A DNA stretch of 39,719 nt from Fusobacteriaceae bacterium (lineage in GTDB: Bacteria; Fusobacteriota; Fusobacteriia; Fusobacteriales; Fusobacteriaceae), in the NCBI GenBank assembly GCA_031289425.1, contig JAITPM010000073.1:1-39719 (forward strand), written 5' to 3'. Below, piece by piece: positions 4,875 through 37,281 of this stretch. The notes beneath the pieces are model-generated. The model did no database searches. It was not told the origin of the DNA and saw only the letters and a list, made by a program, of their open reading frames with translations. Position 1 is the stretch's first letter, and each line of letters opens with the position of its first letter. The position numbers and the translations under genes are program-made.

Positions 4875-4962
4875 GCCTGGATGGCGGAATAGGTAGACGC
4901 ACAGGACTTAAAATCCTGTGGTACTTAGTACCGTGCCGGTTCGATTCCGGCTCTAGGCACCA
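4875..4962 (+). tRNA. tRNA-Leu (anticodon TAA)
   Basis: Cloverleaf of 88 nt with CCA encoded. Acceptor GCCTGGA pairs with TCTAGGC, the anticodon loop is CTTAAAA, the long variable arm is typical of class II tRNAs, and the T-loop is TTCGATT. It is the first tRNA of the operon. Confidence 0.96.
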
Positions 4963-4973
4963 CCATTTAATGT

Positions 4974-5050
<77 letters not shown>

Positions 5051-5076
5051 AAATTATAATGTATGAATATAGATAT

Positions 5077-5152
<76 letters not shown>

Positions 5153-5155
5153 AAA

Positions 5156-5231
5156 GCGTCATTAGCTCAGCTGGTAGAGCACACGACTTTTAATCGTGTT
5201 GTCACAAGTTCGATCCTTGTATGACGCACCA
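5156..5231 (+). tRNA. tRNA-Lys (anticodon TTT)
   Basis: 76 nt with encoded CCA. Anticodon stem CACGA/TCGTG with loop CTTTTAA; acceptor GCGTCAT pairs with ATGACGC. It is separated from tRNA-Gly by only three bases. Confidence 0.95.
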
Positions 5232-5239
5232 GACTCCAT

Positions 5240-5316
<77 letters not shown>

Positions 5317-5322
5317 TAATAC

Positions 5323-5399
5323 GGATCCATAGCTCAGTTGGTCAGAGCACTCGGCTCATAACCGAGTGGTCGTTGGTTCGATTCCAACTGGATCCACCA
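5323..5399 (+). tRNA. tRNA with CAT anticodon: tRNA-Ile2 (lysidine-modified) or elongator tRNA-Met
   Basis: 77 nt with encoded CCA. Anticodon stem CTCGG/CCGAG with loop CTCATAA; acceptor GGATCCA pairs with TGGATCC. It is not an initiator: it has a normal 1:72 pair and no GGG/CCC run. Its GGCTCATAACCG core and GGATCC acceptor look closer to the Ile2 tRNAs I remember from Gram-positives than to elongator Met. The choice cannot be settled without comparison, or without knowing the other CAT tRNAs in the genome. Confidence 0.9.
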
Positions 5400-5400
5400 T

Positions 5401-5475
5401 GGTCCCATCGTTCAGGGGTTAGGACATCAGATTTTCACTCTGGAGACAGGGGTTCGATTCCCCTTGGGACTACCA
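5401..5475 (+). tRNA. tRNA-Glu (anticodon TTC)
   Basis: 75 nt with encoded CCA. Acceptor GGTCCCA pairs with TGGGACT (terminal G:T wobble); the anticodon loop is TTTTCAC with T32, typical for tRNA-Glu. Confidence 0.95.
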
Positions 5476-5539
5476 TTTGATATCATTGAGGAATTATTCC
5501 TTAATTAAATAATATATTTATTTTATTACAAGTTTTTAG

Positions 5540-5623
5540 GGAAGGCTATCCTAATTGGTAAGGAACCGGTCTTGAAAACCGACGCCGTAAGGCTTCAGAG
5601 TTCGAATCTCTGGCCTTCCGCCA
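5540..5623 (+). tRNA. tRNA-Ser (anticodon TGA)
   Basis: 84 nt with encoded CCA. Acceptor GGAAGGC pairs with GCCTTCC; anticodon loop CTTGAAA; a class II variable arm (GCCGTAAGGC) is present; discriminator G, as required for Ser. Confidence 0.95.
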
Positions 5624-5674
5624 TGATTCTAATAATGAAATAAATTGTTATATATGATTTATTTTTATAGTTAT

Positions 5675-5750
5675 GCCCAGATAGCTCAGTCGGTAGAGCA
5701 GGGGACTGAAAATCCCCGTGTCGGTGGTTCGATTCCGCCTCTGGGCACCA
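5675..5750 (+). tRNA. tRNA-Phe (anticodon GAA)
   Basis: 76 nt with encoded CCA. Acceptor GCCCAGA pairs with TCTGGGC; anticodon stem GGGGA/TCCCC with loop CTGAAAA. Confidence 0.96.
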
Positions 5751-5758
5751 TTTTTGAA

Positions 5759-5834
5759 GGTCGCTTAGCTCAGTTGGGAGAGCACCTGCCTTACAAGCAG
5801 GGGGTCATAGGTTCAAGTCCTATAGCGACCACCA
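5759..5834 (+). tRNA. tRNA-Val (anticodon TAC)
   Basis: 76 nt with encoded CCA. Acceptor GGTCGCT pairs with AGCGACC; anticodon stem CCTGC/GCAGG with loop CTTACAA. Confidence 0.96.
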
Positions 5835-5848
5835 TATATATATAATTA

Positions 5849-5926
5849 GGGGGTGTAGCTCAGTTTGGTTAGAGCGCCTGCCTGTCACGCAGGAGGTCGC
5901 GAGTTCGAGTCTCGTCACTCCCGCCA
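5849..5926 (+). tRNA. tRNA-Asp (anticodon GTC)
   Basis: 78 nt with encoded CCA. Acceptor GGGGGTG pairs with CACTCCC (one G:T); anticodon stem CCTGC/GCAGG with loop CTGTCAC; discriminator G as expected. Last tRNA of the operon. Confidence 0.95.
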
Positions 5927-35343: not shown

Positions 35344-35359
35344 AATAAATACAAGTGAA

Positions 35360-35379
35360 CAAGGGGGCTTGCCCCCTTG
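35360..35379. repeat. GC-rich palindrome, left border of the nucleosidase/radical-SAM pair
   Basis: CAAGGGGGC (35360-35368) and GCCCCCTTG (35371-35379) with TT between. No T-run follows on the plus strand. It lies between two co-directional genes, 16 nt after mglC and 29 nt before the next start. It closely resembles the element at 37248. Confidence 0.85.
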
Positions 35380-35408
35380 CATATTCTCACAATTATACAA
35401 GGAGAAAT

Positions 35409-36263
35409 ATGATTTATCTATCAATATCCACAGTAATAGAAGCCAAACCAATCATAAAATATTTAAACCTAAAAAAAAATAATAGTTTTACAAAAGCACA
35501 AGTATTTTTCAATGAAAGAATAACCCTAGTAATAACAGGAATCGGAAATATTGATGCTGCTATTGTTTTAACTTATGTTTTTTCTAAGCTAAATATAACA
35601 CCATCTGATTTACTTATAAATATAGGTGTTTGTTTTGGAAAGAATTGTTATAATTCCGGAGATGTTATTATTTGTAATAAAATAATAAATATCACAAAGA
35701 AAAAAGAATTCTACCCGGATATGATATATATTCATAATTTTAAAGAAGATTTTCTGGAAAATCTTCTTTTAACATCGGATAAAAATAATATTAGAAATAC
35801 TTTGGTTGATTATGAATCTTTTGGAATTTATAAAAGCGGTAGTTATTTTTTTGATAATCATCAAATGATTTTTATCAAAATATTTTATTGTTTGGATGAT
35901 TATGACCTTATTTCCAATGATAAAATAAATGAGATAATAAATAATAGTTTGGAAAGTATTTTTTCATGGATATTTGAAATATCTGATTTATTAAAACAGA
36001 ACAAGATTCTTTTTTCTATTGATGAAAAAGAAATGATAGACAAATTTATTGAAAAATTTAAATTTTCTGTTACTATGTCTATAGAATTTAAAAATTTATT
36101 AAAATATTATAAACTTAATAATAAAAATATCAGTATAGATATTTTATTAGAAAAATATTTTAAAGAAGAAAATATTAAAGAAAAAATTATTAAAGAAGAA
36201 ATTATTAGTAAAAAAAGGGGGAAATATATATTTGAACTCATCAAAAAAGAAATTATGGAATAA
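35409..36263 (+). CDS. MTA/SAH nucleosidase-like protein (nucleoside phosphorylase fold)
   Basis: 284 residues, a diverged 5'-methylthioadenosine/S-adenosylhomocysteine nucleosidase with a ~100-residue helical C-terminal addition. Seen: the order of motifs follows MtnN: STVIEAKPI (Glu12 position), TGIGNIDAAIVLTYVF, LLINIGVCFG, SGDVIICNKI, NTLVDYESFG (the catalytic-site Glu of VEMEA) and FYCLDDYD (the general-acid Asp of SDVAD). All catalytic acids therefore seem kept, but spacing and surroundings are loose. The C-terminus is Lys/Glu-rich with repeats (KEENIKEKIIKEEI). ATG 35409 is preceded by AAGGAG; the in-frame start at 35355 lies within the palindrome. It overlaps the next gene by 32 nt. 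Confidence 0.72.
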   Translation: MIYLSISTVIEAKPIIKYLNLKKNNSFTKAQVFFNERITLVITGIGNIDAAIVLTYVFSKLNITPSDLLINIGVCFGKNCYNSGDVIICNKIINITKKKEFYPDMIYIHNFKEDFLENLLLTSDKNNIRNTLVDYESFGIYKSGSYFFDNHQMIFIKIFYCLDDYDLISNDKINEIINNSLESIFSWIFEISDLLKQNKILFSIDEKEMIDKFIEKFKFSVTMSIEFKNLLKYYKLNNKNISIDILLEKYFKEENIKEKIIKEEIISKKRGKYIFELIKKEIME

Positions 36264-37242
36264 TTTTTTTTCACATGTATATGTAGAGCGGGATGCTTAT
36301 GATTATAGTCTCACGAGAGAAATTTTGTCTAAGCTGAGATATCGTGAAATTATAGAAATTAATGATTATAAGAGTGCTTTTTCAAAAAATAATCAGAATT
36401 TTCGAATTCAAAAAAATTCGCCTAATATTATTTTTGCTGTAAAAAAGGAGAATTATATATATAAGGGAGCCAAGGTATGTGAGAGTTTTGGAAATGATAA
36501 TTTTTATTATACTTCTTCAATTGTAAATTGTATATATAATTGTGAATATTGTTATTTGCAGGGAGTATATACGTCGGCTAATATAGTTATTTTTGTAAAT
36601 ATAGAGGATATGTTCAATGAAATAACTAATTTTCTAAAAAATGATTCCATGTATTTATGTATATCCTACGATACAGATATGCTGGGGCTAAATAATATCA
36701 CAGGATTTATAGAAAAATGGTATGGTTTTGCGGAAAAAAATAAAAATTTAACAATAGAACTCAGGACTAAAAGTGATAATATAGCAGTTTTAAGAAATAA
36801 AAATATAAATAAAAATTTTATTTTGGCGTGGACTCTATCTCCGGAAAATTTTATAAAAGAGCATGAATTATTAACTGCTAAATTGGAAAATAGGTTGAAA
36901 GCTATCAAGGAAGTCATAAGTTTGGGGTATTCTGTCAGAATTTGCTTTGACCCGATTATTTATATAAAAAATTTTGAGGAAGAGTACGGGGATTTGATAG
37001 AGCAAACGTTTTCGTATATAAAAAATTCCGATATACTTGATGTAAGTATCGGAACTTTTAGAATTTCTAAAGAATATTTAAAAAGGATGAGGAAAAATAT
37101 GGAAGATTCATCCATTTTGATGTATCCGTTTACGTGTGTAGATGGGGTATATTCATATTCAGAAGAACGGAATTTGTACATGATAAATTATGTGAAAAAT
37201 CTTGTTTTGAGGCATGTTAATGATAATAAGGTATATATATAA
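36232..37242 (+). CDS. Spore-photoproduct-lyase-like radical SAM protein
   Basis: 336 residues. Seen: the radical SAM cluster motif NCIYNCEYCYLQG (Cys100, 104, 107; C-x3-C-x2-C, with the YLQ that marks the SPL group), then LCISYDTDMLGLNN, ELRTKSDN and AWTLSPENFIKEHE, in the order of SPL proteins. In spore-formers SPL repairs UV thymine dimers using a conserved Cys after the cluster. In my alignment by eye that place is Tyr146, with Cys143 three residues before. The start TTG 36232 has AGGGGG ten bases upstream and overlaps the nucleosidase gene. No sporulation genes are in the window, so DNA repair by this protein is uncertain. Confidence 0.78.
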   Translation: MNSSKKKLWNNFFSHVYVERDAYDYSLTREILSKLRYREIIEINDYKSAFSKNNQNFRIQKNSPNIIFAVKKENYIYKGAKVCESFGNDNFYYTSSIVNCIYNCEYCYLQGVYTSANIVIFVNIEDMFNEITNFLKNDSMYLCISYDTDMLGLNNITGFIEKWYGFAEKNKNLTIELRTKSDNIAVLRNKNINKNFILAWTLSPENFIKEHELLTAKLENRLKAIKEVISLGYSVRICFDPIIYIKNFEEEYGDLIEQTFSYIKNSDILDVSIGTFRISKEYLKRMRKNMEDSSILMYPFTCVDGVYSYSEERNLYMINYVKNLVLRHVNDNKVYI

Positions 37243-37247
37243 AATAA

Positions 37248-37268
37248 ACAAGGGGCATTGCCCCTTGT
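37248..37268. repeat. GC-rich palindrome, right border of the pair
   Basis: ACAAGGGGC (37248-37256) and GCCCCTTGT (37260-37268) with ATT between. Read on the minus strand it is followed by a T-rich stretch (TTATTTTATAT), so it may end the autotransporter transcript. The plus-strand flank AAAATAAA...CAAGGGG is shared with 35360. Confidence 0.85.
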
Positions 37269-37281
37269 CCATAGATATTCC

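Follow-up and report, generated by a model that had tools for sequence, protein, structure and literature searches.

A nucleosidase-fold partner closely tied to a spore photoproduct lyase-like branch of radical SAM proteins in Clostridia and Fusobacteriota

A branch of the spore photoproduct lyase (SPL) superfamily, which we termed SPL-A after the radical SAM protein of the window (the whole analyzed stretch of 39,719 nucleotides from a Fusobacteriaceae genome), occurs in Clostridia and Fusobacteriota in a close to obligate pair with a gene coding for a protein with the fold of MTA/SAH nucleosidases (MTAN; Pfs). We propose, at about even confidence, that the two constitute a two-subunit radical SAM enzyme, in which SPL-A would be the catalytic subunit and the MTAN-fold partner a dedicated subunit that hydrolyzes 5'-deoxyadenosine and couples to SPL-A. 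The C-terminal helical region of the partner is retained beside an intact SPL-A in lineages where the predicted catalytic residues, or the entire N-terminal core, have been lost, the window copy being one such case.

Organization of the locus

The features of the pair in the window are as follows:

35409..36263, plus strand: partner gene, coding for an MTAN-fold protein with a C-terminal helical region (284 aa; ORF with AGGAG at 35400-35404; AF2/Foldseek)
36232..37242, plus strand: SPL-A, an SPL-like protein of the radical SAM type (336 aa; TTG start codon within the partner gene; PF20903 and solved-SPL profile matches)
36232..36263, plus strand: overlap of the two genes, 32 nt (from the ORF coordinates; geometry kept in relatives)
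35712..35747, plus strand: YPDxxxxHxFxE segment of the partner, residues 102-113 (88-96% conserved in relatives)
35886..35891, plus strand: Tyr160-Cys161 replacing Ser-Asp (EcMTAN Asp197), a predicted loss of catalysis (Asp in 95% of relatives)
35916..36260, plus strand: C-terminal helical region of the partner, residues 170-284, the proposed coupling part (five model helices; survives core loss)
36529..36552, plus strand: radical SAM motif C100-x3-C104-x2-C107 of SPL-A, with Tyr106 and Tyr108 (invariant in 22 aligned SPL-A)

The pair lies downstream of an mgl-type sugar ABC operon and is followed by a convergent autotransporter-like gene. The two genes and the 32-nt overlap described in an earlier note on this DNA are correct to the nucleotide (the partner gene stops at 36263 and SPL-A starts at 36232), whereas the start that it gave, 35360, is about 50 nt too early: positions 35360-35379 form a noncoding hairpin that separates mglC from the gene pair. 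Since the GTG at 35355 precedes this hairpin and the ATG at 35409 immediately follows the AGGAG, the latter is most likely the start of the partner gene. A G-rich, ribosome-site-like stretch (36217-36221) precedes the TTG start of SPL-A. Two similar hairpins flank the pair (35353-35379 and 37242-37267; 83% alike over 23 nt), and the second, at 37244-37272, is terminator-like, for the convergent minus-strand gene. Mobility of the pair was considered on account of these hairpins and rejected, as SPL-A is also found 3' of mglC in the sister species and within the genome of the window the exact hairpin pattern is seen at 37249 alone. Elsewhere in the window, 11 tRNA genes are clustered at 4875-5926.

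Pairing across genomes

Across 84,980 scanned species genomes, at least 557 SPL-A relatives were recovered. The 80 best of them come from Clostridia-type and Fusobacteriota genomes, and in 78 of the 80 loci the partner lies directly 5' of SPL-A; the two exceptions are a locus that starts at a contig edge (L089) and an SPL-A without a partner (L105). To avoid selecting on the pair, we also drew 147 class-mates of the Clostridium tyrobutyricum genome evenly and searched them with each profile separately, calling SPL-A at E < 1e-100, a level followed by a gap up to 1e-33. SPL-A was found in 23 of these 147 genomes and had an adjacent partner in all 23: 15 separate and full-length, two fused, four N-terminally shortened with the E, ME, and SD positions kept, one with a broken frame (G115), and one comprised of the YPD segment and tail (G179). 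Among the 124 genomes without SPL-A, a strong nucleosidase match was found only in G129, whose protein (L153) is a tail-less nucleosidase related to the partner family; weaker matches (E > 1e-10) cover approximately the first 100 residues and are housekeeping-MTAN-like. Likewise, in the 61 genomes of the window's own family, all 17 with a strong nucleosidase match have SPL-A. The two genes thus occur together in these samples and not mostly apart.

In L022, L081, and L152 the partner frame is broken beside an intact SPL-A, with the tail readable in another frame, pointing to an assembly error or recent breakage; these were not taken as counter-examples. Viral carriage was likewise set aside, there being only nine distant hits in viral contigs. 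A 2.1-Mb Fusobacterium vincentii record filed as a plasmid (NZ_CP084075.1) has an SPL-A match, 55% identical, at a place where no gene is listed.

Gene geometry, fusions, and neighbors

In 79 of 89 unfused pairs, the partner stop precedes the F.HIY motif of SPL-A by 1, 4, or 7 nt (4 nt in the window, from the coordinates), the same relative frame is kept in 82 of the 89, and the two genes are fused in four instances (L034/L014, L128, L154, and L155). The suggestion made earlier of a self-contained unit hence finds strong support in the near-obligate pairing, the kept overlap geometry, and the fusions. In five Fusobacterium-type loci (L024-L027, L037) a gene coding for a SUFU domain (PF05076; E 1e-28 in L024) lies just 5' of SPL-A, following the partner gene where the latter is on the contig, which indicates that strict overlap is not essential.

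In 73 of 103 loci, SPL-A is followed, on its own strand, by a gene coding for a short-chain dehydrogenase (SDR); the median gap is 1 nt. Beyond this, no recurrent neighbor such as a kinase or aldolase was found around the pair, only scattered common genes. The order partner, SPL-A, SDR would also fit a small biosynthetic or repair pathway instead of by-product disposal, in which a modified nucleoside or base, either consumed or made by SPL-A, is what the MTAN-fold partner acts on, with the SDR carrying out a further step. The presence of an ordinary MTAN in the genomes anyway, and the family-specific YPD/H/F/E segment and Cys75, suggestive of a substrate unlike that of an ordinary MTAN, agree with such a pathway; however, predicted catalysis has disappeared on at least three occasions with SPL-A intact (see below), a loss that an essential step should not tolerate, and we regard this explanation as unlikely, though worth keeping in mind. 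Nor is the SDR a strict companion of the nucleosidase activity, as G179 has lost the partner core and kept the SDR, which counts against a tight link between the two.

SPL-A in relation to spore photoproduct lyase

The SPL likeness noted earlier holds: the window protein scores 74 bits in the Pfam SPL family (PF20903; cut-off 27, E 1.1e-20), retains the CxxxCxxC motif, and matches the solved Geobacillus SPL in a profile comparison (E 3e-19). It shares with spore photoproduct lyase (SplB; PF20903, TIGR04070; PDB 4fhc-4fhg) the fold over the whole domain (Foldseek against 4fhg, TM 0.81 on target) and both active-site tyrosines: C100, C104, C107, Y106, and Y108 are invariant in 22 aligned SPL-A proteins, and Tyr106 and Tyr108 align with Y96 and Y98 of Gt SPL in the profile alignment. 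These shared features would be expected of a genuine spore photoproduct lyase, in which case the pair would repair UV damage. However, SPL-A lies far below the cut-off of 400 of the SP lyase equivalog TIGR04070 (86.7 bits for the window protein, 75.7 for a clostridial SPL-A), six of eight clostridial genomes tested hold a second, distant SPL homolog, and SPL-A is accompanied by its MTAN-fold partner also outside spore formers, occurring as it does in Fusobacteriota, which are not known to form spores. Moreover, in the profile alignment no SPL-A cysteine falls at the H-donor positions established in SP lyases (C141 Bs/C140 Gt, C74 Ca; PMC3742179, PMC5368176), which are occupied by Tyr146 and an acidic residue, a near-invariant Cys143 lying three residues off beside a gap; this mismatch is weak by itself because the H-donor position varies among true SP lyases (PMC5368176). 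Taken together, we consider a spore photoproduct lyase function highly improbable, and nothing in the analysis speaks for UV repair.

The partner protein and the fate of its catalytic site

The AF2 model of the window partner (pLDDT 90.4) has MTANs as its top Foldseek matches in the PDB (E 7e-11), so that the fold part of the MTA/SAH nucleosidase assignment in the earlier note stands. The sequence likeness of the window copy is weak: it has no Pfam match, including PNP_UDP_1, its NCBIfam match is to fut_nucase (E 8e-5), and it reaches 12.9 bits against an NCBIfam MTAN cut-off of 73.8, a threshold also missed by the relatives, of which L053 and L083 (Clostridium tyrobutyricum) score above the Pfam PNP_UDP_1 cut-off. 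The partner family resembles MTAN in its fold and, in most members, the Glu/Glu/Asp triad, and differs in its tie to SPL-A and in two additional elements. One is the YPDxxxxHxFxE segment, which is absent from MTAN. The other is the helical C-terminus of about 100 residues, which had been remarked upon and is real: five helices are seen in the model (170-196, 204-216, 221-237, 243-258, and 268-283), with conserved positions among relatives in the alignment. Nothing in the analysis favors the nucleic-acid binding once considered for this tail. In the window copy, a 15-nt tandem repeat (36149-36208) forms a Lys/Glu-rich insert in the tail that is absent from relatives.

The MTAN triad (equivalents of EcMTAN Glu12, Glu174, and Asp197) is complete in 97 of 107 partners, so the catalytic-site residues are present in most orthologs, and 5'-deoxyadenosine removal is plausible for family members with an intact triad. 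For the window copy the same proposal is probably wrong. Glu11 and Glu136 are kept, and in an alignment with 14 close relatives Cys161 stands at the position of the catalytic Asp; Tyr-Cys replaces Ser-Asp, and a Tyr replaces the Met beside the Glu174 equivalent. Given this Cys, and given MTAN crystals with an Asp-to-Asn change at this position that, by their entry titles, contain active-site MTA or SAH (1z5o, 4oy3), the window partner is probably catalytically inactive. A sequencing error is an unlikely source of the change, as adjoining positions are also altered and the two sister species of the window genus (L030, L032/L051) show more extensive loss, their partners of about 172 aa consisting of the YPD segment and tail without the N-terminal core. 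These species and the window copy form one clade on a quick SPL-A tree. In a second clade (L090, L093, L094) the catalytic Asp is replaced by Gly, and in G179 (L151) the core was lost separately. Judged from these sequences, catalysis would have been lost independently three times, in the window genus, the L090/L093/L094 clade, and G179, with the C-terminal region and SPL-A kept. The conserved segment persists in the core-less L030 and L051, and as YPD in L151, and the SPL-A reading frame is open in every lineage with a predicted dead partner. A canonical MTAN scores above the cut-off in all 15 genomes checked, including all those with a dead partner. The core of the window copy also shows a modest trend toward faster decay than its tail, which is common to some other lineages and was not used as evidence.

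Since the C-terminal region is retained beside an intact SPL-A after loss of catalysis, a further role of the partner, independent of catalysis, is probable; coupling to SPL-A via this region is the best candidate for it. As the part that survives, the C-terminus is indirectly suggested to bind SPL-A. This persistence, together with the fixed stop-to-motif geometry, might lead one to view the partner as serving SPL-A chiefly in a structural or regulatory capacity in all lineages, its nucleosidase chemistry being ancestral and minor; against this, the triad in 97 of 107 partners points to selection for the chemistry in most lineages, and we find this view quite improbable. Contact between the two proteins stays inferred, as a structural check on a natural fusion (L128) gave two well-folded domains and no confident docking or orientation (pTM 0.59).

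Proposed mechanism and implications

Radical SAM enzymes are inhibited by 5'-deoxyadenosine, which a nucleosidase cleaves (PMC6079011). We propose that SPL-A generates a 5'-deoxyadenosyl radical as the catalytic subunit with the SPL fold, and that the MTAN-fold core of the partner would ancestrally hydrolyze the resulting 5'-deoxyadenosine, relieving product inhibition, with the C-terminal helical region coupling this core to SPL-A by docking, assembly, or folding. The SDR, where present, might reduce the released 5-deoxyribose, in line with a reported reduction to 5-deoxyribitol in rats (as cited in PMC6079011), or act on the product of SPL-A. In canonical SPL, some or most of the SAM is regenerated (PMC3742179); a dedicated remover of 5'-deoxyadenosine would suggest that SPL-A would consume SAM. 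In the window genus, the hydrolase part would have decayed with the C-terminal part and SPL-A kept, leaving the housekeeping MTAN to dispose of 5'-deoxyadenosine. That genomes with a housekeeping MTAN tolerate the loss of the nucleosidase chemistry fits by-product removal better than an essential pathway step. The fuller version of this scenario, namely an obligate, co-translated by-product-removing subunit whose fold in several lineages is now dead yet required as a scaffold or allosteric subunit, is more tentative, and we lean somewhat against it.

Besides the docking result, the partner-less L105 and the SUFU gene within the pair in Fusobacterium-type loci count against the two-subunit interpretation. 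Disposal of 5'-deoxyadenosine is usually credited to the housekeeping nucleosidase, and the need for a dedicated one is not evident, since in other genomes the housekeeping MTAN by itself deals with the by-product of radical SAM enzymes.

A further parallel is the drd 5-deoxyribose salvage clusters, likewise operon-grouped genes proposed for radical SAM by-product disposal (PMC6079011); unlike these, the present pair ties the nucleosidase to a single radical SAM enzyme, overlapping or fused, and is not joined by a recurrent kinase or aldolase. No description of the pair or operon was found in the open-access literature, subscription papers falling outside that scope. The conservation of the pair in two phyla, its fixed overlap, and the repeated fusions make dedicated product removal directly testable. 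SPL-A itself represents a large, uncharacterized SPL-like branch of gut and environmental anaerobes, whose members annotation may mistake for the spore DNA-repair enzyme.

Other Fusobacteriota (L038-L048) lack SPL-A and have a different SPL-like branch, 28-33% identical, the two never occurring in one genome in the order scan. This other branch is usually followed by a gene resembling that for DNA polymerase III delta (holA).
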